This document shows, piece after piece, positions 6,898 to 25,143 of a stretch of 49,527 nucleotides of DNA. The stretch lies in NCBI GenBank assembly GCA_024224155.1, contig JAAENP010000284.1, forward strand, positions 1-49,527, written 5' to 3'. A program made the translations under genes and the position numbers. A model generated the notes under the pieces. That model ran no database searches, was not told where the DNA came from, and saw only the letters and a program-made list of their open reading frames with translations. Source of the DNA: a bacterium. GTDB taxonomy: Bacteria > Acidobacteriota > Thermoanaerobaculia > Multivoradales > JAHEKO01. Within the stretch, counting starts at the first letter, position 1; each line of letters begins with the position of its first letter.

Positions 6898-6900
6898 TCG

Positions 6901-8070: not shown

Positions 8071-9848
8071 GGTGCTTTCGGGCTTCGGTACGCCCTGGAC
8101 TACTGGTTGCGGCGATCGCTTTTATTGGTTCCGCGCCGGTCAACGGCGTTGAGATACGCGCCACATCGTGCACGACCTGCCACGGCGACGCAGACTTGTT
8201 CGAGGCCGAGACCCTCGCGATCCTGGAGAGCTTCCGCAACGACGTTCACGCCAAAGTCGGTCTTTCGTGTCACGACTGCCACGGAGGCAATCCGGCGATG
8301 TCGGTTGCCGACGACATGTTCGAGGCCAAGGACGAGGAGTTCGGTCTGAACCCGTATCGTGGCAAGCCGGACCGGATGGAGGCACCCGACTTCTGTGGCA
8401 GTTGCCACTCGAGCCCTTCCTACATGAAGCGGTTCATCTGGCTGGATGCTCAAGTCGGCCAGGTTGGGGAGTACCGGACAAGCAGACACGGACAGAGGCT
8501 GGCGGAGGGGGACGTCAACGTCGCGATCTGCACCGATTGCCACGGCGTTCACGGCATCGTCCGCGTCGGAGATCCGGAGTCACCGGTCTATCCGACCAAC
8601 GTTGCCGACACCTGCGCCTCGTGCCACGCGGATGCGGAGAAAATGAGCGGCTACTTGCTCCCCGACGGTCGCCCACTTCCGATCGACCAGAGTGCCCGCT
8701 GGCAGCAAAGCGTCCACGCGAAAGCGATGTTGGAACGGGAGGATCTGTCCGCGCCGACCTGCAACGACTGCCACGGCAACCACGGCGCCGTGCCCCCGGG
8801 TCTCGACTCAGTGGCCGTCGTCTGTGGTCAGTGTCACGGCCGCGAGGCCGATCTCTTCCGCAGCAGCTCGAAGCACGATGGCTTCGCGCTCCATAACGAA
8901 TACCTGGCCGAGGCCGGCGAGGAAGGCTGTCCGGCGTGCCACGAGCCGCCCGAGCCACAGGCCTGGGTCACCGGCATTCGACACTTCGGCGAGTGCACGT
9001 CCTGCCACGAAAACCACGGTACCGTACGGCCCACGGTCGCTATGTTCGGAGAGCTACCGGAGACACCCTGTGTATTCTGCCATGAGGGTTCGGTTGACCT
9101 GGGAGACGAGGCCGCGGAGCCGGAAGTGTCGGCGCGAAACTACTCGGAGGTTCTTGAAGAGCTCTTTAGCGAAGCGACGGCGGCGAATCTCGAGGGCGAA
9201 GCCCGTTTTGACTGGCTGGTCGACCGAGCTCGCGGTCTCGAGCCGCACTCCGTGTCCGGCGAGGTAGACGAGGAAGGCCGTCCGCTGCTACGGCCTGAGT
9301 TCAGTCGTCTGTTCGACAAATTCCGAATCGGCAAGACCTACTACACCCATGACGATCCGAATACCGGAGAAGAAGTTCGGACACCGATTACACGCTGTAG
9401 CACTTGCCACGTCACCGGCGCCTTGGTCAGCGACGCAACGCCGGGAGCGGTTACCGGCATCGACCTGCTGGATCGGATGAGCGAGCTTACGGCGATGATT
9501 GGAAGAGCCGAGCGAGTCGTGCTGCGAGCCCATCGAGGTGGTGTCGAGGTGCGCGACGCCCAGCTCGAGGTGGATCAGGCAGTCGACTCCGAGATCGGCC
9601 TCGAGGTCCAGGTTCACGGTTTCACCGCGGCCGAAGGTAGCGACTTTCTCTCGACTCACGCAAAGGGTCTGGAGCACGCGCGTACGGCGATCGACTTGGG
9701 CCTCGAAGCTCAGGAGGAGATCCAAGCAAGGCGACACTGGCTAGCCCTTTCCCTGGTCGCGATCGTCGCAACCCTCATAGCTCTGGGCCTCAAGATCCGA
9801 GAGCTCTCGAGGCGCGAAAGAGCCTCGTTCGAGACGTCGGAAGCCTAG
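8067..9848 (+). CDS. 11-haem cytochrome c with C-terminal membrane anchor, module A
   Basis: A 593-residue exported protein with an N-terminal signal ([16 protein letters not shown]) and eleven CXXCH motifs: CTTCH, CHDCH, CGSCH, CTDCH, CASCH, CNDCH, CGQCH, CPACH, CTSCH and CVFCH, then CSTCH isolated after an insert of roughly 100 residues. A helical region and one transmembrane helix ([18 protein letters not shown]) end the protein, placing the haem part in the periplasm like a cytochrome c1. The ATG overlaps the cytochrome b stop (ATGA); the frame is open further upstream, but that lies inside cytochrome b. It probably accepts electrons from the Rieske protein. A shorter 9-haem relative sits at the same place in module B. 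Confidence 0.9.
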
Positions 9849-9909
9849 GTCGGCCGTCTCAGAGGAGGCTCTCCCGGGAGCGAACCGCCGCCTGATTGGG
9901 CATGAAATC

Positions 9910-9990
9910 GTACGCAAGGCGTACTGCGTCGTGCAGCAGTGACGCGGGAAACTACCCGATCGGGTAGTCCGAAAGGCCTTTCGGTCCCGC
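9910..9990. repeat. Array of palindromes in the module A intergenic gap
   Basis: The 226-base gap between the 11-haem and 8-haem genes holds consecutive inverted repeats: GTACGC-AAG-GCGTAC (9910-9924), GCGTC-N10-GACGC (9926-9945), the perfect 18-base palindrome ACTACCCGATCGGGTAGT (9951-9968), then abutting it the perfect 16-base palindrome CCGAAAGGCCTTTCGG (9969-9984). GCGGGA (9944-9949) and TCCCGC (9985-9990) could close the last two in a three-way junction. No T run follows. It may be a structured leader, processing site or REP-type element. Confidence 0.6.
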
Positions 9991-10074
9991 CCTCTCGGTT
10001 GTTGGCGGCGGACTTTGCTACGGCGCATGATGCAGGCGACATCGCGCAGTTCGGTCTGAGTCTGGGGACTTGCA

Positions 10075-10818
10075 TTGAAGATCTGGCGCATTCCTGATCA
10101 GGTTATTCGTTTAGCCGTTGTGCTCGTGGCGGCGGTGGCGGTGTTGGTGGTGGTGAGGGGCCGCTTCGTGCCGGCGTCGTTCGGCGAGACGGGACACTAC
10201 CGGGCCGACGCGGTCGACGTGGTTGCCGCGCAGCCGATTCGATATGCGGGCTCACAGATTTGCGTCGAGTGCCACGACGGCGAAGGTGAAGCCAAGAGCG
10301 GATCCTTCCACCGGACCGTTTCGTGCGAAGTGTGCCACGGCCCCGCGGCCGCGCACGCCGAGGATTTCGAATCCCAGACACCGCTGATCCCCCGCGAGCG
10401 CGGCGCCGAGTGTCTTTCATGTCACGAATACCTATCGCCGCGTCCCACCGGTTTTCCGCAGATCATCGAACGCCTACACAACCCTCTCCAGCCCTGCATC
10501 GGCTGTCACGACCCGCACGATCCCACGCCGCCAGAGGTGCCGGAATCGTGCTCGGCGTGCCACGCCCAGATCGCCAGGACCAAGGCGGTGTCTCATCACT
10601 TGACGCTCGAGTGCGAGACCTGCCACGACGCACAGGCCGAGCACCGCGAGGAGCCGCGCTCCTTTCTGCCCAGGAAGCCGACGGCGAGGGAGTTCTGCGG
10701 CAGTTGTCATTCGGAGAGCGCCGACAGCCCGGCCGACATTCCACGCGTCGATCTGCGCGATCACGGCGAGCGCTACCTGTGTTGGCAGTGCCACTACCCC
10801 CATCACCCGGAGAGCTAA
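10075..10818 (+). CDS. Membrane-anchored 8-haem cytochrome c, module A
   Basis: A 247-residue protein with an uncleaved-looking N-terminal anchor (VIRLAVVLVAAVAVLVVV) and eight haem motifs: CVECH, CEVCH, CLSCH, CIGCH, CSACH, CETCH, CGSCH and CWQCH. Several HxxH-like contexts (CHDPHDP, CHYPHHP) suggest bis-His ligation of the multihaem type. It is followed after two bases by a ferredoxin subunit and then NrfD, so it likely carries electrons between them and the 11-haem protein, in the position ActA or QrcA holds in their complexes. TTG at 10075 is taken as start because no ATG or GTG precedes the anchor. Confidence 0.85.
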   Translation: MKIWRIPDQVIRLAVVLVAAVAVLVVVRGRFVPASFGETGHYRADAVDVVAAQPIRYAGSQICVECHDGEGEAKSGSFHRTVSCEVCHGPAAAHAEDFESQTPLIPRERGAECLSCHEYLSPRPTGFPQIIERLHNPLQPCIGCHDPHDPTPPEVPESCSACHAQIARTKAVSHHLTLECETCHDAQAEHREEPRSFLPRKPTAREFCGSCHSESADSPADIPRVDLRDHGERYLCWQCHYPHHPES

Positions 10819-10820
10819 GG

Positions 10821-11606
10821 ATGGCCGGACAAAACGACGAGCGAAAGTTTCCGCGGCGAGAGTTCCTGGTCAGAACGCTTCAACTTCCGTGCTCGGCGGC
10901 GGTGGTCACCGTTTTGGGACCGCTGGCCCTTGGCTCCGATGCCGCCGCAGCCAGTCAGAGCGGCTCGGAAACCTCGGAGCACTACTTCGGCATGGGGATC
11001 CAGGTCGACAAATGCATCGGTTGCGGCAAGTGCGTCGAAGCCTGCAAGGCCGAGAACGACGTCCCCCGGGAGCCCTATTACTTTCGCACCTGGGTGGAGC
11101 GCTACGTCATCCACAACGACGGTGACGTGTCGGTAGACAGCCCCGAGGGAGGCATTCGGGGCTTTCCCCTGCACGAGGGAGAGAGTGACGTGTTGCGCTC
11201 TTTCTTCGTTCCCAAGCTCTGTAATCAGTGCGACAACCCGCCATGCGTACAGGTATGTCCGGTGGGGGCGACATTCAAGACCGACGACGGGGTCGTGCTG
11301 GTGGACAGCGACTACTGCATCGGCTGCCGCTACTGTATCCAGGCCTGTCCCTACGGCGCCCGCTACCTCGATCCACGGACCAACACCGCGGACAAGTGCA
11401 CCTTCTGCTATCACCGCATCACGCAGGGACTGTTGCCGGCCTGTGTCGAGGTCTGCCCGACGGGGGCCAGGATTTTCGGCGAGCTCAACGCGTTGGCCAG
11501 CCCGCTGCGGCGGTTGATGAGGATGAGCTCGCTTCAGGTTCTGAAGCCCGCTCTCAATACCGAGCCCAAGGTCTTCTATTCGAAGTTGGACGGAGAGGTG
11601 AGGTAG
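10821..11606 (+). CDS. Tat-exported ferredoxin-type subunit with four [4Fe-4S] clusters, module A
   Basis: A 261-residue DmsB/NrfC/HybA-like protein that wires electrons between haems and an NrfD membrane partner. The Tat motif PRREFLVRT near residue 11 is followed by a hydrophobic stretch and an alanine-rich cleavage area. Sixteen cysteines fall into four groups: CIGCGKCVEAC, CNQCDNPPCVQVC, CIGCRYCIQAC, and CTFC with ACVEVC. The start is ATG 10821, directly after AAGG. An NrfD gene follows at once, the usual pair. No molybdopterin subunit accompanies it, unlike module B, so the partner is presumably the 8-haem cytochrome. Confidence 0.93.
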   Translation: MAGQNDERKFPRREFLVRTLQLPCSAAVVTVLGPLALGSDAAAASQSGSETSEHYFGMGIQVDKCIGCGKCVEACKAENDVPREPYYFRTWVERYVIHNDGDVSVDSPEGGIRGFPLHEGESDVLRSFFVPKLCNQCDNPPCVQVCPVGATFKTDDGVVLVDSDYCIGCRYCIQACPYGARYLDPRTNTADKCTFCYHRITQGLLPACVEVCPTGARIFGELNALASPLRRLMRMSSLQVLKPALNTEPKVFYSKLDGEVR

Positions 11607-11610
11607 TCGC

Positions 11611-12843
11611 GTGGAGCAGCATCTGGAGCGCCTGGAGTCGGCCGTCGAGCAGATCTCGGGGTTCATCTATCCCAACGAGATCGAGCTCCATTGGGGGCTG
11701 CTGGTGGTGCTCTATCCGTACATTACCGGCTTGGTGGCGGGGGCCTTCATCCTGGCTTCGCTGGAGAAGGTCTTCAAGGTGAAGGAGCTCGAGCCTACCT
11801 ACCGGCTGGCGTTGCTTACGGCCCTGGCCTTCCTACTGGTGGCGCCGTTGCCTCTCCTCGCCCATCTCGGTCACCCGGAGCGCTCGTTCGAGATCTTCCT
11901 CACCCCGCACTTCAAGTCGGCAATGGCCATGTTCGGGTTCGTGTATGCCTGGTATCTGATGCTCGTTTTGTTGTTGGAGATCTGGTTCGACTACCGAGCC
12001 GATCTGGTCAAGTGGGGGCGGAAGGCGGGAAGGTTCAAGAAGTTCCTCTACTGGGTGATCACGCTGGGCTCGCGGGATCTGTCGCCGGAGGCCGTCGAGT
12101 TCGACAAGAAGGCCGTGCACACGATCACCTTGATCGGCATCCCGTCTGCCTTCTTGCTGCACGGCTATGTCGGTTTCATCTTCGGATCGGTCAAGGCGAA
12201 TCCGTGGTGGAGCAGCGTGCTGATGCCCATCGTGTTTCTGTTCTCGGCCATCGTGTCGGGGATTTCGTTGGTTCTCCTGATCTATTACGTGACGACGCTG
12301 TTTCGCCGCAAGCAGCCGGAGATGGCCTGTCTCGACAAACTGGCCTCCTTCCTGCTGTACGCGCTGATCGTGGATTTCTCGTTGGAGATCTTGGACTTTA
12401 TTCATCGGCTGTACGAGTCGGAAGAGTCGATCGGGATCCTCTCGGAATTGATCGTCAGCAAGCTCTACCTCAGCTTGACAATCGTTCAGATTCTCATCGG
12501 TACTATCGCTCCGCTGCTCATCCTCGCCTATTCTCGTTTTTCACGGCTTCCGACCGAGCTCAAGCGGGTCGCCTACTTTATTGGCGCGTTGCTGGTGCAG
12601 GTCGGAATCTTCGGCACGCGCTGGAACGTAGTGATCGGAGGACAGCTCTTCTCGAAGAGCCTCCGCGGGTTGACCGTCTACAAGCTCGAGCTGGGGGGCA
12701 TTGAGGGCCTGTTCACTTGCATCGGTCTTCTCATTCTGCCGTTCGTCATTCTCTACATCTTGATCAAGGTGCTGCCGCCGTGGGAGGAGGCTTCGCTCGC
12801 GCTCTCGGAAGACGCTGCGGTCTCGACCGCTAGCGCGGATTGA
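11611..12843 (+). CDS. NrfD/PsrC-type integral membrane subunit, module A
   Basis: A 410-residue polytopic membrane protein with about eight to ten hydrophobic helices (for example LHGYVGFIFGS, FLLYALIVDFSLEILDF). The family binds quinone and exchanges electrons with a ferredoxin-type partner on the periplasmic side, as in PsrC, ActC and QrcD. It starts at GTG 11611, four bases after the ferredoxin gene, with GGAGG upstream. It closes module A, so this operon contains two separate quinone-reactive membrane proteins, cytochrome b and NrfD. The C-terminus is a short polar tail. Confidence 0.92.
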   Translation: MEQHLERLESAVEQISGFIYPNEIELHWGLLVVLYPYITGLVAGAFILASLEKVFKVKELEPTYRLALLTALAFLLVAPLPLLAHLGHPERSFEIFLTPHFKSAMAMFGFVYAWYLMLVLLLEIWFDYRADLVKWGRKAGRFKKFLYWVITLGSRDLSPEAVEFDKKAVHTITLIGIPSAFLLHGYVGFIFGSVKANPWWSSVLMPIVFLFSAIVSGISLVLLIYYVTTLFRRKQPEMACLDKLASFLLYALIVDFSLEILDFIHRLYESEESIGILSELIVSKLYLSLTIVQILIGTIAPLLILAYSRFSRLPTELKRVAYFIGALLVQVGIFGTRWNVVIGGQLFSKSLRGLTVYKLELGGIEGLFTCIGLLILPFVILYILIKVLPPWEEASLALSEDAAVSTASAD

Positions 12844-12931: not shown

Positions 12932-14146
12932 TCAGGGGCTTCGTTGCTCGGATTCGGCCTCTCGGGTTCGCTGAAGATACGCCAGCAGGTTGCGCAGATC
13001 CTCACCTGAGAGCTCGGGCCAGAGCTTGCCCTCGCCGAGGATCGCTTCCTTCATCACCGGCGCATGACTCCACAGGGCCGCGATGAAGGCGGCCGGCGAC
13101 CGGCTCGCCGCGGTACCGGCGAGATCGGATCCTTGGTGCGCCGAGGCCGCGCCGCCGCCGTGACATTCGGCGCACGACCTGGCGGAAAAAGCATCTTCGC
13201 CGCGCACGGGGTCACCGGGCCGGTCGGCGAACGGCAGGAAGTAAAGGTACGCGATCAGGTCGGCCAGTTCGGCTGTCGAAAAACTCGGCCAGCCGACGCC
13301 ACGGCTGAGCATCATCTCGCTCATCACCGAAGCGTGATTCCACATCAAGCCCGCGATCGTCTCCGCCGAGCGATGTAGGTCCGCGCGCGTCAGGTCAGGT
13401 CCGTCGCCGCCTCCAGTCGCATTCCTGCCGTGGCAAAGCGCGCAGCCTCTGCTTCGGAACAGTTCTCTGCCGTGATTTGGATTGCCCGGAGCCAGCAAGG
13501 TACGCTCCGCAGGCCCCTCGGCCGTGGCCTGGCGAAAGTAAGCGCTCAAATCAGCCAGATCCCCCTCACCGAAGCTTGGCACGGCCATGCCTGCCGTGCG
13601 GATGGTCTCGAACATCTCCGGGCCGTGGTTCCAGATCGCCTGGGCGACAAAGAGCGGGGAGGCGAAGCTCTCGAGCCCGTCCAAGTCTGGGCCCAAACCG
13701 CCTCGGCCGCCGAAGCCCGAGAGCTCGTGACATTCCTGGCAGCCTTGTACCCTGAAGGTGGCCCTTCCCGCTGTGGCATCGCCGGGCTGGCCCAGATACT
13801 CGATGAAGTAGAGGAAAGAGGTCAGTTCGACCACTTCCGTTTGCGACAGTTCGGGCCACGGGAGCTTGGCGTCCTCGAAGCTGACGCTCATCCCGGGAAC
13901 GTGGTTCCACAGCGCCGCTCCGAGATCGAGAAGGCTGCCGCCGAAGGCCTCATGCCCGAGATCGGGCCCCACCCCAGGAGTGTTGCCGGCGATGCCGTGG
14001 CATTGAACGCAGTTCCGGTTTTCGAAGAGCAGCCGCCCTTCGAGTGGATCGTCAGGGAGCGCAGCACCGGAATCTGAAGGACTTGCTCCGACGAGTGCGA
14101 GAGCGCACAGCAGAACGAGCCAACCATCGGCACTCAGAAGCCTCAT
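12932..14146 (-). CDS. Tetrahaem cytochrome c made of four tandem monohaem domains, module B
   Basis: A 404-residue exported cytochrome (signal LLCALALVGASPSDSGA) with four haem motifs, CVQCH, CQECH, CALCH and CAECH, about 95 residues apart. Each is followed by a near-repeat of W-N/S-H-x-P/S-x-M (LWNHVPGM, IWNHGPEM, MWNHASVM, LWSHAPVM) and a closing helix (ELTSFLYF, DLSAYFRQ, DLIAYLYF, NLLAYLQR). This is four copies of one class I-type domain, with Met probably the distal ligand, unlike the bis-His cytochromes around it. It is last in module B and overlaps the preceding gene by ATGA. ActE of Alternative Complex III occupies a comparable place but is monohaem. Confidence 0.9.
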   Translation of the reverse strand: MRLLSADGWLVLLCALALVGASPSDSGAALPDDPLEGRLLFENRNCVQCHGIAGNTPGVGPDLGHEAFGGSLLDLGAALWNHVPGMSVSFEDAKLPWPELSQTEVVELTSFLYFIEYLGQPGDATAGRATFRVQGCQECHELSGFGGRGGLGPDLDGLESFASPLFVAQAIWNHGPEMFETIRTAGMAVPSFGEGDLADLSAYFRQATAEGPAERTLLAPGNPNHGRELFRSRGCALCHGRNATGGGDGPDLTRADLHRSAETIAGLMWNHASVMSEMMLSRGVGWPSFSTAELADLIAYLYFLPFADRPGDPVRGEDAFSARSCAECHGGGAASAHQGSDLAGTAASRSPAAFIAALWSHAPVMKEAILGEGKLWPELSGEDLRNLLAYLQRTREAESEQRSP

Positions 14147-14439
14147 TCCGGGCCAGGTCCTTTTTCTTTCCTGTCGGTGCTATCGGCCGCCGAGGAGGCA
14201 CCACGGCGCAATCCAACGAAGACATAGGTCAAGACCGACGCGCCAGTCAGAAACACGGGGATGGCGACGATCGAAATGCCGACCGACGCCGACGGTACGT
14301 CGTGCAAGGCTTGGGAGAGACGCATCAAATGGATGATCCAGACGCTGATCCCAACGACAAAGATCCAGATCGCGGCGACCGACGCGACTTGACACGCGAC
14401 GATCCAGGGCGGTGTCTGCCGAAATTTGGTTTCGGTCAC
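14143..14439 (-). CDS. Small two-helix membrane protein, module B
   Basis: A 98-residue protein with two transmembrane helices (VACQVASVAAIWIFVVGISVW and VGISIVAIPVFLTGASVLTYVF) and a charged C-terminal tail. It is locked between the NrfD and tetrahaem genes by ATGA overlaps at both ends, so it is very probably a structural subunit of the same complex. The place corresponds to ActD or ActF-like accessory subunits, but I see no sequence signature for either and leave the family open. Confidence 0.75.
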   Translation of the reverse strand: MTETKFRQTPPWIVACQVASVAAIWIFVVGISVWIIHLMRLSQALHDVPSASVGISIVAIPVFLTGASVLTYVFVGLRRGASSAADSTDRKEKGPGPE

Positions 14440-15812
14440 GCCGTCTCTCCTTTCGGCACCGGGTCCGGCAGGTAGCTCTCGACGCGCTCAGCGGTCTCAG
14501 CTACCGCTATCTCCTGGCCTTCTCGCAGCTCCCAGACCGAGATGAGCGGAAACAGCCGAGCGAAAAGGACGAACCCGAGGGCAAAGGTCGCGAGCCCGCC
14601 CACGAACATGGCCCACTCGACAAGACTGGGAACATAGAAGCCACTGGGGTAGGCCAGCCGGGGATTGGCCAGCGACGGCACCACGATATTGAGCCGCTCG
14701 AGCCACATGCCGATCACGATAGCAATCGACGCCACCATGATTCCGGGAATGGTTCGTGTGCGCCGGAAGCTCAGCAGAACCACAGGAATCAAGAAATTGC
14801 ACACCACCATGCCCCAGAAGAGAGTGGCGTACGGTCCGGTGAACTTGTAGAAGAAGACTCGCATTTCGGCCGGCTCATTCCCGAAGAACGCGGTCAAGTA
14901 CTCAGAAAAGGTGAAGTAGAACCAGAGCAGCGACATGACCAGCAGCAGCTTAGACAGGTGGGAGAAGTGAATCTCCTTCAAGTACCGTTCAAGGTGGAAG
15001 ACCCTTCTCAGAACGATCATCAGGACCATCAAGGCGGCAATGCCGGAGAAGATCGCGCCGACCACGAAATAGGGACCAAAGATGGTCGAATGCCATCCCG
15101 GTTGCAGAGTCATGGCGAAAATGTAGGAGATGACCGTGTGCACCGAGACCGCGATCGGAATCACCAGGATCATCATGATGTTGACTGCGCGCTCCAACAC
15201 TTCCCGCTGGCGCGGCGTGTTCTGCCAGTTCCAGGCCAGGAAGGAATAGAGCCAGCGCGGCCTCGCGCCGCGGTCGCGCAGCAAGGCGATGTCGGGAATC
15301 ATGGGCATATAGAGATAAACGGTCGATGCCATGAAATAGGCGGAGATCGAGCTCACGTCCCAAAGCAGCGGGGATTGCAGGCGGCCTGCCGTGAAGATGT
15401 TGAGCATGCGATCCGGGCGACCGAGGTCCAGAACCGGGTGGAAGGCACCGATCGCGAGCACCACGACGGTAATCACTTCGGCCATACGTGTGATGGGGCG
15501 GCGCCACTCGGCGTTCGAGAGCCTCAGAATCGCCGAGATCAGCGTACCGGCGTGGCTGATGCCGATGAAGAACACGAAATTGACGATATAGAAACCCCAT
15601 CCCACAGGCTGGTTAAGACCAGTCACGCCCAGGCCGCGCAGAATCTGGCGGCTGAAGAGAACCCAGCAGCCCAAGATGATCAGAATGAGCAAAGTCGTTA
15701 CCACCCGAAAAGCGCTACCGGGCTGCTCGACCGAACGCAGCAGGGCGTCGATGTCTTGCTCGGAAAGATCGTGTGAGGTGCTTGGCCGTACTTTGGCGCG
15801 CTCGGAGCTCAT
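14436..15812 (-). CDS. NrfD/ActC/QrcD-type quinone-binding membrane subunit, module B
   Basis: A 458-residue polytopic protein resembling ActC of Alternative Complex III: NQPVGWGFYIVNFVFFIGIS, SHAGTLISAILRL, HPVLDLGRPDR and WNWQNTPRQREVLERAVN are characteristic. It would exchange electrons between menaquinone and the periplasmic ferredoxin subunit, possibly with proton movement. The true start is ATG 15812, which overlaps the ferredoxin stop (ATGA); the open frame continues upstream only inside that gene. The stop overlaps the two-helix protein gene. It is distinct from the NrfD of module A, which lacks these ActC-like motifs. Confidence 0.94.
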   Translation of the reverse strand: MSSERAKVRPSTSHDLSEQDIDALLRSVEQPGSAFRVVTTLLILIILGCWVLFSRQILRGLGVTGLNQPVGWGFYIVNFVFFIGISHAGTLISAILRLSNAEWRRPITRMAEVITVVVLAIGAFHPVLDLGRPDRMLNIFTAGRLQSPLLWDVSSISAYFMASTVYLYMPMIPDIALLRDRGARPRWLYSFLAWNWQNTPRQREVLERAVNIMMILVIPIAVSVHTVISYIFAMTLQPGWHSTIFGPYFVVGAIFSGIAALMVLMIVLRRVFHLERYLKEIHFSHLSKLLLVMSLLWFYFTFSEYLTAFFGNEPAEMRVFFYKFTGPYATLFWGMVVCNFLIPVVLLSFRRTRTIPGIMVASIAIVIGMWLERLNIVVPSLANPRLAYPSGFYVPSLVEWAMFVGGLATFALGFVLFARLFPLISVWELREGQEIAVAETAERVESYLPDPVPKGETA

Positions 15813-16492
15813 TCCTGCTCCTCGAGGTAGAAGACCTTGGGCCTCGTGCCGAGGTCCTCGTGGGGCCGAAATGCGCGCGGACTGCGCGCCAAGGTGCTGA
15901 CAGTGCTCTCGGGATCGTCCAGGTTTCCAAGCACGATGGCCCGCGCCGGGCAGCTCTCCGCGCAGGCGGGAACGACCTCGCCGTCGCGAAGCTCGCGGTC
16001 CTCGGCGCGAGCCTGCTCGCGGGCGTGATTCACGCGATGGTGACAGAAGGTGCATTTCTCGACCACGCCGTGCGAGCGAAACGAGACATCGGGGTTGGCC
16101 TTCCGCTTCAACTCGCCCGGCCATTCAGGCTCGTACCAATTGAAGACCTTGGCGTTGTAGGGACAGGCCGCCATGCAATAGCGGCAACCGATACAGCGGC
16201 TGTAGATCTGGCCGACGATACCCTCCTCGCTCAGATAGGTCGCGTGCACCGGACAGACCTTGACGCAAGGAGGATCGTCACACTGCACGCAGAGTGCGGG
16301 CTTGTAGCGCACCGCGGCGTGAGCCTCCGACCCCGAGACTTCGCGCAGTAAGCGAATCCAATGAAAGGCTCGACTCTGATCCGTCTCTTCGGGCCCGACA
16401 GCCGTCAGGTTGTTCTCCTGGTGGCACGCGGCCATGCAGTTTCCGCAACCGGTGCAACGGTCGAGGTCGATTGCCATGCCCCAGCGAGCCAT
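15809..16492 (-). CDS. Ferredoxin-type subunit with four clusters (ActB2/QrcC-like), module B
   Basis: A 227-residue iron-sulfur protein without its own signal peptide, starting MARWGMAIDLDRCTGCG. Four cysteine groups are visible: CTGCGNCMAAC, CVQCDDPPCVKVC, CIGCRYCMAAC, and CTFC with ACAESC. It is presumably exported attached to the Tat-bearing molybdopterin-family subunit encoded just upstream (TGATG overlap). In Alternative Complex III the two are fused as ActB; here they are separate, as in the Qrc complex. It relays electrons between the haem proteins and the NrfD subunit. Confidence 0.93.
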   Translation of the reverse strand: MARWGMAIDLDRCTGCGNCMAACHQENNLTAVGPEETDQSRAFHWIRLLREVSGSEAHAAVRYKPALCVQCDDPPCVKVCPVHATYLSEEGIVGQIYSRCIGCRYCMAACPYNAKVFNWYEPEWPGELKRKANPDVSFRSHGVVEKCTFCHHRVNHAREQARAEDRELRDGEVVPACAESCPARAIVLGNLDDPESTVSTLARSPRAFRPHEDLGTRPKVFYLEEQE

Positions 16493-18984
16493 CAGCCGTG
16501 ACCTCCGGTGAGCGGCCGCACACCGCCACGCCCGCGCTTCTTGACCAGAGTCGCCCGCACCCGTGTCGAGACCGTGGCCAGCGCGCCGGAAACCGGATCG
16601 GGGACCGCCGCCAGGATCTCTGTCGGGTTGGCGCCGACATCGTCCGCCAAGCCGCCGAGGCCCCGCCTGCCCAGGCCGGAGGGCACATGAGCAACGCCCG
16701 CCACGGCACCCGGCTCGATCTTGACGACTGCTTCGACTGGCGGCTCGGGAGCAGCGGTCTCGGCTTGAAGCGTCACCCGATCGCCTTCTTCGAGATGGAG
16801 CTCATGCGCCGTTTCGGGTGCCAGCTCGACCCAGGTCTGCCATCCCGAGAGCACCGGATAGCCGTACATCTCGAGCAGCATCGGCGAAGCCACGCCCATG
16901 TCGCCGCGGCCGGTCATCGGTCGAAATGGCACCAACGTCAAGGCGTCGCTCGAACTGCCCGCGGCGGCAAACCTGGGCGGCTCGAAATGCGGCAGGCACG
17001 CTTCGTCGGCGCTGGCCTCGACCTCCAGGCCGAGGGCCTCGACACCCCGGCGCAGTGCTTGCTCGGGTGAGGACTCGCCCGCCAACCGCCCGATCTCATC
17101 CAGATGGCGCTCGAACGCCAGCGAAAAGAACTCATAGCGCCCGGTAGAGGTGCGAAACATCCGATTCCAGTCGCCCCGCGCCAGGACCGGATTCCACCAG
17201 CCGCCCTTGCGCGCCAAGCTCTGCCAAAATGCCTCCCGATCGCCGCTTTCCAGAAAACGCCAGCCCCGTTCTTCCAGAAAGTGGACCCAGGACTCCTCGA
17301 ACGAGCCGGAGATGACCGAGCCCTGTCCGGAGGTTCGAAGTCCTTCGAGGCGCTTCTTGAGATAGACCTCGTAATTGGACCAGGGCAGTGTCGTTGCGAG
17401 TCTGCCTCCTACACGACGCGCCAGTTCGAGCAAGGCGTCACCCGGGTGGCGGCTGTCAAACAGCGGCGGCGTAACAGGCTGACTGACTCCTAGAACGCTG
17501 AACCCCACGCCTTCGGGCGTGATCGACTCCCGCCAGGTTTCGAGAGACAGGCTCGCAGGCAGCACGACATCGGCTGCTGCCGCGGTTTCGTCCCTGAATG
17601 AGGAGAATGCAACCACCAACGGGATGCGTTCGAGCGCCTTTCTCAGCTCGCCGCCGGCCGGGCTGTCGTAGACGGGGTTGGTGCCGGACACGAACAGCAC
17701 CTCCAGATCTTCAGAACCGACCAGAGCTTCGACCGGATCGATGCCAAGACTGGTGGAGTCTGCGGCGGGGGTGAAGATGCCGGCGCGCTCTTCGCCTCCG
17801 TCTCCATTGATCGGTTCGGTCGGTGCGAGGGGCGCGAGCGGAACCGGCGACGGCAGTACGACTCCTCCCGGTCGGTCGAAAGCGCCGAGCAGCGCGTTGA
17901 GCGAATGGGCCGCCAGAGCGGTCGAAGTGGCATTGGTGCCCGAGACAGACTCGCCGCCACAGACCACTACTGGCCGCTCGGCGCGAGCGAGGCGTCTGGC
18001 AACACGGATGATGCCGCGCGGATCTGAGCTACTCAGTTGTGCCGCGCGATCCGGATAGTACTGCTCGAGCAAGAGCCGGCGGAACCCGAGCCGTCTCTTG
18101 CCGCGATCGTCGGTCCAGTCGTTGAAACCGAACGTATGCTCGTCGACGAACCGTCCATCGTAGCGCCCTTCGCGCACCAGAACGTGCGCGATGCCCAGGA
18201 CCGCCGCGGCGTGAGTTCCGGGGGCGACAGCCAACCGCTCCTCCGCCTTGGTAGCGCTCGGTGAGAGCCGCGAGCCGATGTGAATCGAGCTCGCCCGGTT
18301 CGTCGGTTCTCGAGAGCCCACCATTGCGTTGATGGTGTGAAGCGGAGCCGCGCCGCCCTCGAACAAATCCAGCCCAACCGCCAGCACCAGATCGGAGTTG
18401 GCGAGATCGAATCCGGGAATTTGGTCTATTCCCTGGGCCAGCTTGTACACCAACGCCGCGTCGCCCGATCGGTGAGTGATGTTCGACGAGCCCAGCGCCC
18501 GGGTGAAGCGCCGAGCGAGATCCTGAAACAGTTGGCCCGGATCGCCGTTCAGAAAAGCGACCTTGTGCCCGTCGCCAGAGCTCTCGAGCTTGCCCAGGCG
18601 AGCGGCGATCTCGCTCAGCGCTTCGTCCCAGCCGGTCGGCTGGAAACTCCCGTCGGGTTGGCGGCGGAGCGGTCCCTGCAGCCGGTCGGGCGCGTAGAGA
18701 ACTTCGAGGCCGGCCTGCCCGACCGGGCACAGACCACCGCGGTTGAGCGGATGCCTGCGATTGCCCTTGATTCCCACAGGCAGATCGTCCACCAGTCGGA
18801 CGGTGATTCCGCACCCGCCCTCACAGAGGCCGCAGATCGTGTTGAGCTGGCGTTCGATTCCGGGCCCCCGAAGAGCCAGTTCGACCATCCGGTCAGGGAC
18901 CAGAAAGCGCCCGCAGGAGCCCAGGGATACGGTGCCCACCGAACCGCCCAGAAGCTTCAGGAATTCGCGCCGCTCGAGAATCAT
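16492..18984 (-). CDS. Molybdopterin-oxidoreductase-family subunit (ActB1/QrcB-like), module B
   Basis: An 830-residue member of the DMSO-reductase superfamily. It begins with a Tat motif (LERREFLKLLGG) and a lipobox-like LGSC, and keeps the N-terminal cluster site CGLCEGGC plus GGLCPVG. A C-terminal MGD-binding-type domain ends the protein (GWQTWVELAP, LEEGDRVTL). In Act and Qrc complexes this subunit is structural and binds no molybdenum; I see no obvious catalytic ligand, though I could not align it. Together with the downstream ferredoxin and NrfD genes it defines an Act/Qrc-type quinone:periplasm oxidoreductase. An interval of 33 bases separates it from the pentahaem gene. Confidence 0.9.
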   Translation of the reverse strand: MILERREFLKLLGGSVGTVSLGSCGRFLVPDRMVELALRGPGIERQLNTICGLCEGGCGITVRLVDDLPVGIKGNRRHPLNRGGLCPVGQAGLEVLYAPDRLQGPLRRQPDGSFQPTGWDEALSEIAARLGKLESSGDGHKVAFLNGDPGQLFQDLARRFTRALGSSNITHRSGDAALVYKLAQGIDQIPGFDLANSDLVLAVGLDLFEGGAAPLHTINAMVGSREPTNRASSIHIGSRLSPSATKAEERLAVAPGTHAAAVLGIAHVLVREGRYDGRFVDEHTFGFNDWTDDRGKRRLGFRRLLLEQYYPDRAAQLSSSDPRGIIRVARRLARAERPVVVCGGESVSGTNATSTALAAHSLNALLGAFDRPGGVVLPSPVPLAPLAPTEPINGDGGEERAGIFTPAADSTSLGIDPVEALVGSEDLEVLFVSGTNPVYDSPAGGELRKALERIPLVVAFSSFRDETAAAADVVLPASLSLETWRESITPEGVGFSVLGVSQPVTPPLFDSRHPGDALLELARRVGGRLATTLPWSNYEVYLKKRLEGLRTSGQGSVISGSFEESWVHFLEERGWRFLESGDREAFWQSLARKGGWWNPVLARGDWNRMFRTSTGRYEFFSLAFERHLDEIGRLAGESSPEQALRRGVEALGLEVEASADEACLPHFEPPRFAAAGSSSDALTLVPFRPMTGRGDMGVASPMLLEMYGYPVLSGWQTWVELAPETAHELHLEEGDRVTLQAETAAPEPPVEAVVKIEPGAVAGVAHVPSGLGRRGLGGLADDVGANPTEILAAVPDPVSGALATVSTRVRATLVKKRGRGGVRPLTGGHG

Positions 18985-19017
18985 CCCTTGTGATCTAGGT
19001 CGGTCGATGCCGGCCGC

Positions 19018-19542
19018 TCAATAGTGACAGTGGACACAGTCGTTCGATGCACCCGATTCCTCGTGACATTCGATGCAGTTGTCCATCGTCGGCCGCCAAT
19101 GCGGCCGGCGAATGGGTTTCACCTGCTCGTTTACCGGCCCATGACAGACCTCGCACTCGATCGCGGCGATCGCGGCGTGCCGCCGGTGAGAAAAATAAAC
19201 GTGCTCTGGAACGCGGTACACCTTGCGCCACGGAACCCGCTCGCCGGCCGCGATGTACTCCACCAGCTTCGCTTCTTCGGGAGATTCGGTCTGCGCCTCT
19301 TCGTGACAGTCGGCGCAGTTCTCTATGTTGGGTATGGTGGCGCGCTCGGAGGTCATCGCATAGAGATGGCAGTCCAAACACTCGAATCCGAGCTCCTCGA
19401 CGTGGACGTTGTGATTGAAAGCGAGCGGTTGTCGAACGGGCAAACCGCCGTAAAGCGGCGACCTTGGAGACAGAGCTAACAGTCCCCCCGCTGCGACCAG
19501 CACGACGATCCCTGCAAGGGCGACTGTCCTCCGATTCACCAT
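19018..19542 (-). CDS. Membrane-anchored pentahaem cytochrome c (ActA/QrcA-like), module B
   Basis: A 174-residue protein with an N-terminal anchor (VALAGIVVLVAAGGLLAL) and five haem motifs: CLDCH, CADCH, CEVCH, CIECH and, at the very end, CVHCHY. FNHNVH and YFSHRRH precede the first and third motifs and probably give distal His ligands, as in class III and c7-type domains. It sits directly before the molybdopterin-family, ferredoxin and NrfD genes, the place of ActA or QrcA, which pass electrons between the complex and soluble or multihaem partners. ATG 19542 is the start. Confidence 0.9.
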   Translation of the reverse strand: MVNRRTVALAGIVVLVAAGGLLALSPRSPLYGGLPVRQPLAFNHNVHVEELGFECLDCHLYAMTSERATIPNIENCADCHEEAQTESPEEAKLVEYIAAGERVPWRKVYRVPEHVYFSHRRHAAIAAIECEVCHGPVNEQVKPIRRPHWRPTMDNCIECHEESGASNDCVHCHY

Positions 19543-19858: not shown

Positions 19859-21550
19859 CTAGTGACAGTCGGCGCAAAGTGTGCGGTCGGCTTTGGCCGA
19901 GATCCGCGGCGCCGTGCCGTGGCAATCGCTGCAGCCGATCTCCATGTCGTCGACATGGGCGGCATGGCTGAAATCGCCGAACTCGACGGCGAAGGTCCGG
20001 TCGCGAACCGCGCTATGGCAGCTCATACAATCGCGGGCGTCGTCGCCGTGATGGCAGCTCATACAGTCGGACTGGTTCAGCCGGAGATGTTGTTCGCCGG
20101 TGGATTCACGTTCATCGTGGCTGCGGTGGCAGGTCTCGCAGTCCAGGCCCTGGCGCATGACGTGCCGCGTATGCGAGAACGACTTGCCCCAGACGTTGCG
20201 AGTCCGGGTTTCCGCCCCAGCGTGGCACTCCATGCACGGTGTCTCATAGGGCGGCGCAGGCCAGGGCGGCGAGAGCTCACTCCGTCCGATCAGTCCCCTG
20301 GCCTCGTTTTGCTGGCGGTGCACCGCCTGGAGAAGCGCGAGGCTGTACTTCACGTTGTGAATACCGCTGCCACGCTCGACGAGCTCGAGATTGTGTCTGG
20401 CGTCGGCGAGGACTGTCGACGTCTGCTTCCCCAGCAGCCTTGACGTAGCCTCCAGTTGGCGCCGGGCCGCTGCAGCTCTCTCGCGCACCGTGACCTTCCA
20501 GTCTTCGAAGAGCGTTCGGTAACGGGGTCCGTGACAACTCATGCAGGCTACATCCCCTGCGGTGCGCGTCCCGCCTTCGTGCTGCAGGTGGCAGCCCTCA
20601 CAGCGCACTCCGGCCTGATACATCACGTCGGGCATGGGCGGCACACCCTTGCCGCCGATACCGGCATAGAGGCTGCGCTGGGGGGAGTGGCCGCCGCCGT
20701 GGCAGGCTTCGCACTCGGTCCGGACCGCCTCCATATGGCGAGGAGCCACGTGCTCGATCTCGAGGTGGCAGTTGGTGCACTCGACTTTGTGGTCCGTGAC
20801 GTGAGTCTGGTGGAGCAGATCGCCCTCTTCGTAGCGTTCGAGTCGCTCGGGATCGTTGTGACAGGTGAGACATCGTTCGCGTGGAACACCGCCGGAGCTC
20901 GCCGCTGCCGGTGTATGACAGGACTCGCAGGCCATGCCGAAGCGGGCTACGTCTCCGTGATCGAATTGGAGACCGTTCGCGTCGACGGTGTGGTCCGGGG
21001 TCTGATGGCAGAGTGTGCACTCGGCCGTTCCGGTCCCGGGCTCCTGATTCTTGAAGTGGCAGAGGATGCAGGAGGTGCCGGTGACCGTGATGTGGCTTCC
21101 CTGGACGATCTGGGAATGACAGGAAGTGCAGCGCAGCCGCTTGCCGCGGCGAAGCTCGGTCAGGTGTGGTCCGTGGTCGAAGATCACGCTGCCGTAGAGC
21201 TCGCGCCCGACCAGCAGCCGTCGCTCATGGCACTCGAGACATGCGGCGTCATCGACTTCGGTCCAGGGATTGGTGCCGTAGGTACCGGTGAAGTAGCGAG
21301 TCACCATCGACAGAGCCTCGTACTTCTTGCGCAGCTCGGCGGTGATGCCGGGGGAGATGTGGCAATCCACGCAGGCGATGTCGGCGTGTGACGATGTCTT
21401 CCAGGACTGATAGTAGGGGTCCATGACGTGGCAGGAGCCGCAGAAGGCGGGCGTTCCGCTCGCCTCCATCGCGCCGTAGCTTGCGACCACAACGAGTCCG
21501 ATGGTGAGTCCCACCACGTAGGCGGTGGCTCCGAACGCTCGGATCTTCAT
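19859..21550 (-). CDS. 18-haem cytochrome c with NapC/NirT-type N-terminus, module B
   Basis: A 563-residue protein with an N-terminal anchor (YVVGLTIGLVVVASYG), the NapC/NirT entry segment FCGSCHVMDPYYQSWKTSSH, and eighteen CXXCH motifs. The last, CADCH, is followed directly by the stop codon. Motifs come in two blocks (12 and 6) divided by a roughly 100-residue helical linker (RAAAARRQLEATSRLL). NapC/NirT proteins oxidise menaquinol and feed periplasmic partners; here such a head seems fused to a long wire. The ATG overlaps the preceding 9-haem gene (ATGA). It could carry electrons between the Rieske/cytochrome b unit and the Act-like complex. Confidence 0.9.
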   Translation of the reverse strand: MKIRAFGATAYVVGLTIGLVVVASYGAMEASGTPAFCGSCHVMDPYYQSWKTSSHADIACVDCHISPGITAELRKKYEALSMVTRYFTGTYGTNPWTEVDDAACLECHERRLLVGRELYGSVIFDHGPHLTELRRGKRLRCTSCHSQIVQGSHITVTGTSCILCHFKNQEPGTGTAECTLCHQTPDHTVDANGLQFDHGDVARFGMACESCHTPAAASSGGVPRERCLTCHNDPERLERYEEGDLLHQTHVTDHKVECTNCHLEIEHVAPRHMEAVRTECEACHGGGHSPQRSLYAGIGGKGVPPMPDVMYQAGVRCEGCHLQHEGGTRTAGDVACMSCHGPRYRTLFEDWKVTVRERAAAARRQLEATSRLLGKQTSTVLADARHNLELVERGSGIHNVKYSLALLQAVHRQQNEARGLIGRSELSPPWPAPPYETPCMECHAGAETRTRNVWGKSFSHTRHVMRQGLDCETCHRSHDERESTGEQHLRLNQSDCMSCHHGDDARDCMSCHSAVRDRTFAVEFGDFSHAAHVDDMEIGCSDCHGTAPRISAKADRTLCADCH

Positions 21551-22758
21551 TCGTTCTCTTCGTCGTCGACGGCCACGAGCTTTCGCCGGTAACGCCAGAG
21601 AATGGCGACCGTCATCAGAAGATAGAACCAGAACACTGCCAGTGTGGCATGGGCTACCCGCCGATCGAGCCGCTTGTAGAGCTCGTGCTGGACTTCGCTG
21701 CCGAGACTCCGCGCCCGGCGCGTGACGCGCTCGACCGCGTCCAGAGAAACCGAATGAATCTGCGGAAAGGCTTCTGTCAGGAAGGTCTGTCCCTCCTCGA
21801 TTCGGCCCAGGTGGTCCTCGACCGGCAAAGGAACGCGCTGTGCCCTCGCGACCAGGGCTTCGGCTTTGGCCAGCTCTTCTCTGGTGGTCTGGATCAGGCT
21901 ACTGAATTTTCGGCCCAGAATCGCCTCGTCGGAACCTTCACCATGGCAATCGGCGCAGAGGGTCTCGATCTCGGCAACCTCGAACTGGCGAATAGCATGA
22001 TTGGAGTGACAGGACGCGCACTCGGGCAGATCGGCGTCGAACATGGCCTGGTCATGCGGTCCGTCCAGGAAGGCCAGCCGGGTCTCCACGTGGCACGAGC
22101 CGCAGATCTTGTCGATGTCACCGACGCCGGGCGGCGCCGGTCCATGAGATCCGTGACAGCTCGTGCAGTCCGGCGCCGCCAGATTGCGATCCTCGAGCAG
22201 CACTCGGGCGTGGATGCTCGAGCGGTACTCTTCCACCACGCCGTGATCGATCCCGTATCGGGACATCAGGCTCTCGTCCGCATGACACCGAGAGCAGGTT
22301 GCGGTGACATTGGCCGCGCTGACCGGGCTCAAGGGGTCGGTCGCCTTGCGTACGTCGTGGAAACCGTGACAGTCGCTGCACACCGCGGCGCGCGCGTCAC
22401 CGGCGGCGACCGCCTTGCCGTGCGGCGAGGTCAGATAGACGGCGTACTGGTCTATCGGCAGGTTGTATGGGCGCATCTGGGCGAGATCCGAGTGGCATTT
22501 CGCACAACTGGCCGGAGACTCGAGACGGTCGGTCAAGGGCCGAAAGCCGCTTCGATGCGCGGGTCCGACGTCCAACGACTCAGCGTTGCCACCGTGACAT
22601 CTCGTGCAGGTGACGCCTTCGGCGCGATGCACGCTGGGGGCGAGCTCGACTCGACTTTCGGGATGACAGATGCCGCATTTCTCGTCGGCACCCTCGGCCG
22701 GCGCGGATGCCGCGGTCCACACAGCGAGGATTAAGACCGGGGCAAAGCTCGACTTCAT
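21547..22758 (-). CDS. 9-haem cytochrome c with C-terminal membrane anchor, module B
   Basis: A 403-residue exported protein: signal peptide (SSFAPVLILAVWTAASAPAEG), nine haem motifs (CGICH, CTRCH, CAKCH, CSDCH, CSRCH, CTSCH, CGSCH, CASCH, CADCH), a helical stretch, then one transmembrane helix (LAVFWFYLLMTVAILWRY). Organisation and placement directly after cytochrome b match the 11-haem protein of module A, so the two are probably paralogues standing in for cytochrome c1. The start ATG 22758 overlaps the cytochrome b stop; the open frame extends upstream only through cytochrome b. It lacks the isolated eleventh-type haem and its insert. Confidence 0.9.
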   Translation of the reverse strand: MKSSFAPVLILAVWTAASAPAEGADEKCGICHPESRVELAPSVHRAEGVTCTRCHGGNAESLDVGPAHRSGFRPLTDRLESPASCAKCHSDLAQMRPYNLPIDQYAVYLTSPHGKAVAAGDARAAVCSDCHGFHDVRKATDPLSPVSAANVTATCSRCHADESLMSRYGIDHGVVEEYRSSIHARVLLEDRNLAAPDCTSCHGSHGPAPPGVGDIDKICGSCHVETRLAFLDGPHDQAMFDADLPECASCHSNHAIRQFEVAEIETLCADCHGEGSDEAILGRKFSSLIQTTREELAKAEALVARAQRVPLPVEDHLGRIEEGQTFLTEAFPQIHSVSLDAVERVTRRARSLGSEVQHELYKRLDRRVAHATLAVFWFYLLMTVAILWRYRRKLVAVDDEENE

Positions 22759-23882
22759 GCCACACTCGCTCCATACAGGGTCAGCAGTACCCATGAGACC
22801 ACAATGATCGCGGCCGCCGCCCAAACCAGCGGCCTCCGGCCTCCGGCTTCTTCGGGCCGCGGGCGGTGCAGGAACGGAAGGGCGACCGCGGCCACGGTCG
22901 CCATCAGCATGGCCAAGCCGACGATCCATCGGGGCAGGAATCCGGCGGTCATCTCGAGCAGGCCGAACGGGGCGAGTAGATACCAGGGGGGACCGATACC
23001 TGAAGGCGTCGAAAAGGGGTCCGCTTTGCTCTCGAACGGGAGCGGCGCGAGCACGGCGAAAGTCATCAGGACCCCGAGCAAGAGCACGAAGATGATCGCC
23101 AAGCTGGCGAGATGAGCACGAACGGCTCGCCGGCCGGGTATACTGGTCGTCTTCTCCTCACCGCTGAGTCCGATGCGCCTCACGGTCGAGAAATGGAAGT
23201 AGACGAGGGCGAGGGCCAGTAGGGGCAGCACCGCGATGTGAAGGATGTAGCTGCGTATAAGTGCTACATCAGAGATGAAAGAGCCTCCCGTGCCGATGAA
23301 GAAAAGCATCCCGTTGCTGATCACGGGCACCGTCGCCAGAACTTCGATCGCTCTCACCGTGGACCAGTAGGAGGAGGTCGTCCAAGGTAGGAACCTGCCG
23401 GTCAAGTCGGCGTGCAGAGAAACCAAGAGCAGGAGCACGCCGAAGACCCAGACCAGCTCTCGCGGCCGGCGATAGACCCGTTGAAGAAAGAAACGGACCA
23501 GTCGCAGGATCAAGACCGCGATCAACATCTGGGCGCCCCAGAAATGTGTCTGGTAGATCAAGGCTCCGAAATCGACGTCCCGGAGGATGGTCGCCACGCT
23601 GGCGTGCGCGCTTTGTGGAGTCGGCAGGTAGTACAGCGCGAGCAGGCCGCCGGTGAGGATCTCGACCGCCAGCAGAACCAGGACGACCAAACCGAGTACC
23701 CTGGGCCATCGACTGTAAGAAGGAACCGGCTTTTCCAGGGCCTCCTCGAGCGCTTCTGCGAGCGGCTTCCTCGGATCGAGCTCCGTGTAAAACAAACCGT
23801 AACTGGTGAGGAGAGAAAAGACCTCGGTCAGGTTGAGTCGGGTCGAGAGCCACCCGAGTAGCTTTTGTGTGGTCTGGCTCAT
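22755..23882 (-). CDS. Divergent cytochrome b with one haem ligand and the Qo Glu replaced, module B
   Basis: A 375-residue cytochrome b with N- and C-terminal domains. Aligned by eye on the module A protein through the shared HxW and YRRPRE segments, helix B has H113, but the second ligand position is R127 (codon CGA), while helix D keeps H215 and H230. By the b6f pairing H113-H215 can hold the p-side haem; the n-side haem would have only H230. The Qo motif is PPWY (298-301) instead of PEWY. The start ATG 23882 overlaps the Rieske stop. The surrounding helices are well preserved, so it looks like a functional variant rather than a decaying copy. Confidence 0.92.
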   Translation of the reverse strand: MSQTTQKLLGWLSTRLNLTEVFSLLTSYGLFYTELDPRKPLAEALEEALEKPVPSYSRWPRVLGLVVLVLLAVEILTGGLLALYYLPTPQSAHASVATILRDVDFGALIYQTHFWGAQMLIAVLILRLVRFFLQRVYRRPRELVWVFGVLLLLVSLHADLTGRFLPWTTSSYWSTVRAIEVLATVPVISNGMLFFIGTGGSFISDVALIRSYILHIAVLPLLALALVYFHFSTVRRIGLSGEEKTTSIPGRRAVRAHLASLAIIFVLLLGVLMTFAVLAPLPFESKADPFSTPSGIGPPWYLLAPFGLLEMTAGFLPRWIVGLAMLMATVAAVALPFLHRPRPEEAGGRRPLVWAAAAIIVVSWVLLTLYGASVA

Positions 23883-24343
23883 GTCCGGTGCAGGTTGACG
23901 ACCAGACGGCCCATCCTGGTCTCGACCACGTAGCGCTCGAGCGGTACCGGCGCCGGACCGGAGAGGACATTGCCATTCAGGTCGAAGGAGCCCGCGTGGC
24001 AAGGACAGTCCATGACGCGTCTTTCCGGATCCCAGTCGAGGACGCAGTGAAGATGAGTACAAACGGCCGACATACCCACATAGGCGTCTTCACCGGTACG
24101 AACGACCCATACCGGCTGACGGCCGTGCCGCACAAGACGGCCTTGGCCTATTGTCAGTGAGTCGGTCGTGCCCGCATCGAGGGTCGTCTCCCCCAGCCCC
24201 CGTCCACCCTTTGGCGGTTGGACGAAAGCCGCCGCGACCCAGGCGGCTCCGAGCGCCCAAAGAGACCCGAAACCTCTTACCAGCCAGACAAGGAATCGGC
24301 GCCTTTCCGGGGACTGACTACCTGAGGGCTGATTACTAGACAT
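23879..24343 (-). CDS. Rieske [2Fe-2S] protein, module B
   Basis: A 154-residue Rieske protein with a Tat-like SPERRRFLVW and one N-terminal helix (GSLWALGAAWVAAAFV). All cluster ligands are present, CTHLHC and CPCHAGSFD, with the loop GPAPVPLERY. I prefer ATG 24343 because GGAGGA lies about ten bases upstream of it; ATG 24352 is in frame but only two bases from that site. Its intact cluster beside a cytochrome b that has lost two key residues suggests one-electron transfer still occurs here. Confidence 0.93.
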   Translation of the reverse strand: MSSNQPSGSQSPERRRFLVWLVRGFGSLWALGAAWVAAAFVQPPKGGRGLGETTLDAGTTDSLTIGQGRLVRHGRQPVWVVRTGEDAYVGMSAVCTHLHCVLDWDPERRVMDCPCHAGSFDLNGNVLSGPAPVPLERYVVETRMGRLVVNLHRT

Positions 24344-24432
24344 CCTCTGCATTCCTCCGATCGAAGCTTCCCGGAAGTGCCTCGATCATCACCGGTTCAT
24401 CAGCGTTTGGCAAGCTCTCGACAGGGCAAACG

Positions 24433-24507: not shown

Positions 24508-24555
24508 GCCGGTGAACGACGCATTCCCGCGTAAATGGATCGAAAGGAGTTGCCC

Positions 24556-25143
24556 GTGCGGAAGTTCGTTCTTGTCCTCGTGATGCTCGTCGGGATGGTG
24601 GGGCTTCTCGTCTCGGTCCCCGCTTCGGCCGAAGACGGCGAACACGCCTATATCGGCAGCAAGGGCTGCAAGAAGTGCCATCTGAAGCAGTACAAGTCCT
24701 GGGAACAGACGACGATGGCAACGACCTTCGAGGCGCTCAAGCCGGGTGAAAGGGCCGAGGCCAAGGCGGCGTCTGGATTCGAAGTCGACAAGGACTACAC
24801 GACAGACCCCGAGTGCGTGAGGTGCCATGTGACGGGTTACGGGAAAGAGGGTGGCTTTGTCGATATCGAGACGACCCCCGAGCTCGCCGGCGTCGGCTGC
24901 GAGTCGTGCCACGGTCCGGGTGCGACCTACACTCAGGATCACCTGATGAGCCTAAAGAACAAGGAGTACAAAAAGGCCGAGGTCGTGGCGGCCGGAATGG
25001 TCGACACGATCTCTGCGGACCAGTGCGTGGGCTGTCACAGCGCCGAGAATCCGGCGGTTGGCGACGACTTCGTCTTCGATTTCGAAGCCAACAAGGACTC
25101 CGGAATCCACGAGCACTTCCCGCTCAAGTACTCGCACGAGTAG
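24556..25143 (+). CDS. Exported tetrahaem cytochrome c (cytochrome c554-like)
   Basis: A 195-residue protein with a clear signal peptide (RKFVLVLVMLVGMVGLLVSVPASA) and four haem motifs: CKKCH, CVRCH, CESCH and CVGCH. YIGSKGCKKCHLKQYKSWEQT and VGCESCHGPG are typical of the cytochrome c554/c-prime-type multihaem family, soluble periplasmic carriers. I choose GTG 24556 because AAGGAG sits seven bases upstream; an upstream in-frame ATG at 24535 has no ribosome site. It diverges from module B and may be its mobile electron carrier. Confidence 0.88.
   Translation: MRKFVLVLVMLVGMVGLLVSVPASAEDGEHAYIGSKGCKKCHLKQYKSWEQTTMATTFEALKPGERAEAKAASGFEVDKDYTTDPECVRCHVTGYGKEGGFVDIETTPELAGVGCESCHGPGATYTQDHLMSLKNKEYKKAEVVAAGMVDTISADQCVGCHSAENPAVGDDFVFDFEANKDSGIHEHFPLKYSHE

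Follow-up and report, generated by a model that had tools for sequence, protein, structure and literature searches.

An acidobacterial clade of Rieske-linked cytochromes b with Arg at a haem bH ligand position and multihaem cytochrome partners

The stretch of DNA analysed here, called the window, comprises 49,527 nucleotides of a Thermoanaerobaculia genome (Acidobacteriota) and carries two Rieske/cytochrome b gene modules, A and B (Table 1). In the module B cassette, the gene order Rieske, cytochrome b, 9-haem c, and multihaem c was observed in every fully readable member of the group of relatives described below. The first-pass annotation had proposed a c-haem wire in the neighbourhood of the module B cytochrome b, and large multihaem c genes do adjoin every fully readable member. 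Gly replaces Ser in the Rieske proteins of both modules, which we take to denote the low-potential type. The multihaem c protein harbors 18 CXXCH motifs in the window and in all of the relatives with a complete copy (9/9), and its first haem has the CXXCHxM form in the window and in the 13 relatives covering that part of the gene. The NrfH-like start of the protein matches 2j7a and scored 54 bits against NrfH (TIGR03153), missing the cut-off of 134; this first domain is classed here as NrfH-like, not as NrfH. In L044 the match to the multihaem gene ends after 12 haems (13440-13594) and unrelated DNA follows to the end of the contig, a break that is perhaps an insertion element or an assembly join.

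A CbcL-like fusion of a multihaem c cytochrome with cytochrome b561 lies directly 5' of the cassette, upstream of the Rieske gene, in seven of the 13 members whose upstream DNA is readable (L037, L042, L043, L067, where it was identified by eye, L068, L069, and L070), and is absent from the window. In L046 and L069 a decahaem cytochrome of the GSU2203 type and an outer-membrane protein of the GSU2204 type are encoded beside the cassette (the porin match in L069 is weak), a pointer to extracellular electron transfer. In the window itself, a gene for a GSU2204-type outer-membrane (seleno)protein is open over its C-terminal third only, and the adjacent selenophosphate-synthase-like gene leaves no space for the rest; the gene is possibly truncated. 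Divergently to the Rieske gene of module B lies a gene for a tetrahaem protein of the cytochrome c554 family, and four tandem mono-haem class I cytochrome c domains are encoded between the two modules. Downstream of the cassette lies a hybrid operon whose QrcA-, QrcB-, and QrcC-like subunits all missed their cut-offs (100, 310, and 280 bits against 180, 440, and 400) and whose membrane subunit is nearest ActC of alternative complex III, not QrcD (38 bits against 570). QrcA/B-like genes are also found downstream of the cassette in the window's sister genome, L066, and since they occur just in these two, the QrcABC-like genes were rejected as members of the conserved cassette. Two futalosine-pathway menaquinone genes are present in the genome.

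Table 1. Features of the window, with residues numbered as in the module B cytochrome b.
Feature	Position	Strand	Remark
GSU2204-type protein, C-terminal third	682..1272	-	
Selenophosphate-synthase-like gene	1394..2305	-	
Module A	6409..12843	+	Rieske, canonical cytochrome b, 11-haem c, 8-haem c, FeS, NrfD
Module A cytochrome b	6901..8070	+	His at all four ligand positions, PEWY
Four mono-haem class I cytochrome c domains	12932..14146	-	
QrcA-, QrcB-, QrcC-like and ActC-like NrfD genes	14436..19542	-	
18-haem c-type cytochrome	19859..21550	-	N-terminal TM and NrfH/NapC-like quinol dehydrogenase domain (CXXCHxM)
9-haem c-type cytochrome	21547..22758	-	C-terminal membrane anchor
Module B cytochrome b (putative bH-less clade)	22755..23882	-	375 aa; Pfam Cytochrome_B 1.9e-35
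PPWY Qo motif	22980..22991	-	residues 298-301; without acidic residue
L261	23100..23102	-	in place of Qi-site Asp
H230	23193..23195	-	helix-D haem bH ligand position
H215	23238..23240	-	helix-D haem bL ligand, retained; H 15/15
R163	23394..23396	-	in place of Tyr of GY(L)LPW segment
G148	23439..23441	-	n-side helix-C Gly
R127	23502..23504	-	codon CGA; helix-B haem bH ligand position (bovine H97)
H113	23544..23546	-	helix-B haem bL ligand, retained; H 15/15
Residue 110	23553..23555	-	3 before bL His
Module B Rieske protein	23879..24352	-	Cys/His ligands all present, Gly at Ser position
Cytochrome c554-family tetrahaem protein	24535..25143	+	

The module B cytochrome b exceeds the cut-offs of Pfam PF00033 and PF00032, the profiles of the cytochrome b family, and its AF2 model (pLDDT 87.9; best VIA match 6kls_B, Z 31.5, 332 residues) predicts the fold of an ordinary cytochrome b. 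Minus-strand translation placed R127, H113, H215, H230, and the PPWY motif where the first-pass annotation had put them, with R127 at the position of a His in module A. By phmmer, R127 aligned gap-free to the bH His of cytochrome b6 (2zt9) and of the P. aeruginosa cytochrome b (8smr). A shifted alignment was searched for and none was found, in line with ligand spacings of 14 and 15 and with the concurrence of several alignments made separately. A haem c(n) as in b6f was rejected, as the helix-A site is without a nearby Cys in the sequence.

When 396 genomes of the phylum were searched, seven close relatives scored above every other cytochrome b. Seven further members, from the window's own family, came from a profile search of the order to which the window belongs; one of these seven and L037 are the same contig. 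Profile scores were 356-573 bits in the clade, the lowest being that of a partly masked member, and did not exceed 217 bits in other cytochromes b. In the tree, the 15 divergent cytochromes b, the window counted in, form one clade with a support of 100/100, whose sister group is large and consists of ordinary cytochromes b, module A among them. The named records of the clade are Acidobacteriota throughout, one of them a Thermoanaerobaculia MAG of the window's family (genome G508). A single-query scan of genome contigs gave no match for the module B cytochrome b, and a profile scan of them, working through one 9-residue pattern, gave five records, every one from Acidobacteriota; with respect to other phyla this is a weak test. 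The Arg-type cytochrome b occurs in scattered Acidobacteriota.

Residues were counted in the 15 clade members and in 33 ordinary cytochromes b, the tree row A_L085 (wrong reading frame) being excluded. At the helix-B bH ligand position, Arg is found in 15/15 members and His in 33/33 others, so that no relative with His at R127 emerged from the clade. A private mutation was rejected because the Arg is shared by a clade with full support, and a sequencing error or pseudogene because these are 15 separate genes that use all six Arg codons (CGA, CGC, CGG, CGT, AGA, and AGG) with a low dN/dS. The acidic Qo residue is P, A, or G in 15/15 members versus E or D in 33/33 others, and the pairing of Arg with a non-acidic Qo motif, for which the first-pass annotation had asked whether it defines a clade, does mark this one. 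The n-side haem site is compromised as it had claimed, and the Rieske 2Fe-2S ligands are complete in the operons of 15/15 members, again as claimed.

The same annotation regarded the rest of the protein as preserved, which proved wrong: the Qi Asp, the Qo Tyr, the n-side Gly, and several charges are altered across the clade, and the protein is a deeply remodelled paralogue rather than a preserved one with two substitutions. The Qi Asp position holds L, I, or Q in 15/15 members (D in 32/33 others), the Tyr after the p-side Gly is replaced by R, N, or K (Y in 31/33 others), and the conservation of LPW in the GY(L)LPW segment is gone. The n-side helix-C Gly, G in 33/33 others, is G in five members including the window and A, S, or T in 10/15 (A 8, S 1, T 1). 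The helix-D bH His is retained in 11 of the 14 readable members, the window included, and is Asn in three (one is masked); on the tree, H230N would have arisen three times independently, barring a regain of His. H113, H215, and the p-side Gly78 and Gly162 are invariant in the clade. Residue 110 is Arg in 32/33 ordinary cytochromes b and H, Y, N, Q, or S in 13/15 clade members, so the potential of bL may be shifted. Pairwise dN/dS of the clade cytochromes b was 0.13 and 0.08, values that indicate maintenance by purifying selection. By motif spacing and general knowledge, we take G148 to be bovine G116, the clade glycines to be bovine G34, G48, G116, and G130, and Qi Asp position 261 to be bovine D228 and Rhodobacter D252. 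The role of the Qi Asp has been described (PMC9162462, PMC5001787). Since n-side residues are lost or relaxed and p-side residues kept, the n-side haem and quinone sites seem to have decayed together while the p-side half stayed constrained, and haem bH and Qi, which make up the n-side half, appear to be dismantled in the clade. Beyond what the first-pass annotation had proposed, the residues indicate that the Qi quinone site is also lost and that the clade can dispense with the second bH ligand as well.

Judged from its sequence, module B is homologous to the Q-cycle complexes but fails two of their defining features, a bis-His bH and the Qi Asp. Quinol dehydrogenases of the CbcL and NrfH/NapC types pass quinol electrons to c haems on the periplasmic side without a Q cycle. 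Unlike module B they are without a Rieske/cytochrome b core, and both recur at the cassette, the CbcL type as its neighbouring multihaem-b561 fusion and the NrfH/NapC type as the domain with which the 18-haem protein begins. The precedents nearest to module B are one natural complex and laboratory mutants without bH. Natural loss of the bH ligands is shared with the "deranged" bc1 of the acidophilic Acetobacteraceae Acidiphilium and Acidocella, in which the Rieske protein is absent or without ligands and which was judged non-functional (Degli Esposti et al. 2023, PMC10715153); the present clade differs in its intact Rieske and bL, its fixed Arg, and its multihaem cytochrome partners. The R. 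capsulatus mutant H212N, a haem bH knock-out in which electron transfer through bH/Qi is impaired (PMC4807273), and the bH-less b6f mutant of Chlamydomonas (Malnoe et al. 2011, cited in PMC10715153) likewise keep the p-side Rieske/bL and have a broken n-side haem, but they are single engineered changes with Qi and Qo otherwise normal, and not a conserved clade. ExtO/ExtP of the Geobacter ext cluster also combine a Rieske protein and cytochrome b with several multihaem c cytochromes (PMC2825233, PMC5877670), although, on size, neighbouring cytochromes, and profile score, ExtP is unlike module B, being a short b6-type protein (23 kDa) with different cytochrome partners, and the module B protein reached 149 bits against ExtP (NF040969, selenite/tellurite operon b-type cytochrome), missing the cut-off of 290. 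The Rieske/cytochrome b complexes of the anammox organism Kuenenia resemble module B in their extra c haems and the unusual low-potential electron routing proposed for them, but they are b6f-like with haem bN in the proposed route (PMC12954380). A literature search covering few subscription papers found no paper describing an Arg-type cytochrome b or a conserved clade with an intact Rieske but without bH and Qi.

The Q cycle requires haem bH and Qi. In module B, haem bH would be lost, or at best without bis-His ligation, and the Qi quinone site would be gone, which would leave no Q cycle and oblige the low-potential electron to exit by another route. Haem bL and the Rieske cluster would be retained on the periplasmic side. 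One quinol electron would then pass via the Rieske cluster into the 9-haem cytochrome, which would substitute for cytochrome c1/f, and the other via haem bL to periplasmic c haems, probably at the NrfH-like start of the 18-haem wire, a route favoured by the constant cassette partners, including the membrane-anchored NrfH-like domain. The purifying selection and the adjoining multihaem wire proteins suggest that module B probably sends electrons outwards without cycling. The absence of haem bH, the electron paths, their direction, and the redox activity of the clade are what we infer from the genes. Our favoured reading, with the balance tipping just to its side, is that module B is a non-Q-cycle menaquinol:multihaem-cytochrome c oxidoreductase, the n-side half being dismantled and Rieske and bL working on the periplasmic side. 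That it is a selected natural non-bifurcating Rieske/cytochrome b enzyme whose Rieske and bL electrons both enter a 27-haem periplasmic wire is proposed more tentatively, the chances leaning somewhat against it. Quinol oxidation at Qo is not assured, because the Qo region is remodelled (Tyr163 to Arg, LPW unconserved).

The low-potential electron could also leave through module A, in a hetero-dimer or supercomplex where it would pass from bL of B to bL of A, then to bH and Qi of A. An A-type cytochrome b is present in 14 of the 15 genomes carrying clade B and in 90 of the 396 sampled genomes (7/8 of the sampled B carriers versus 83/388 of the others; one-sided Fisher 1.7e-4, kinship ignored), the two cassettes are in tandem in L044 and near each other in the window and L067, and bL-bL transfer was seen to be catalytically relevant in Rhodobacter fusions (PMC4330944). 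The co-occurrence and the tandem cassettes keep the bL-bL route in consideration, but such a partnership is unlikely: the A and B cytochromes b are about 30% identical and differ in an N-terminal extension and many charges, B supplies its own Rieske and c subunits, and a complete A cassette may just serve an anaerobe as its main bc complex. It is rather unlikely too that haem bH is still bound in a high-spin state by H230, or by Asn via water, with Arg as a non-ligand in a modified Q cycle. A five-coordinate haem could persist given the H230 of most members, position 230 shows H or N only and is thus still constrained, and a Rhodobacter bL site that had lost one ligand through a His-to-Asn change still held a high-spin haem (PMC8138165); the three members in which neither His is left speak against the idea, as do the relaxed n-side Gly and the loss of the Qi Asp in all members.

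The flow might instead be reversed, with an extracellular donor feeding the c-haem wire and the Rieske/bL site reducing menaquinone on the periplasmic side. The outer-membrane conduit genes adjoining the L046 and L069 cassettes would suit this scheme, as would the QrcABC-like genes downstream in the window, Qrc being known to reduce menaquinone with c-haem electrons (PMC6303296), but NrfH-family domains usually oxidise quinol and nothing in the data directly signals direction, and we consider it improbable. By analogy with the acidophilic Acetobacteraceae, for which the lost bH ligands give a precedent (PMC10715153), module B could be a degenerate complex serving as a structural partner only, and its Qo segment is indeed remodelled. 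This is very improbable, given that Rieske ligands, bL ligands, and haem counts are fully conserved across great divergence and that dN/dS is about 0.1.

Rieske/cytochrome b complexes are the textbook machine of the Q cycle. If, as in our favoured reading, the n-side half was dropped and the p-side half selected, bifurcation can be abandoned with the enzyme retained, and the core of complex III would be reusable as a linear quinol dehydrogenase. The clade offers a natural test of how haem bL and Qo behave without bH and Qi, such as short circuits and the fate of the semiquinone, and it suggests a route by which menaquinol electrons may enter the outer-membrane conduits of Acidobacteriota.
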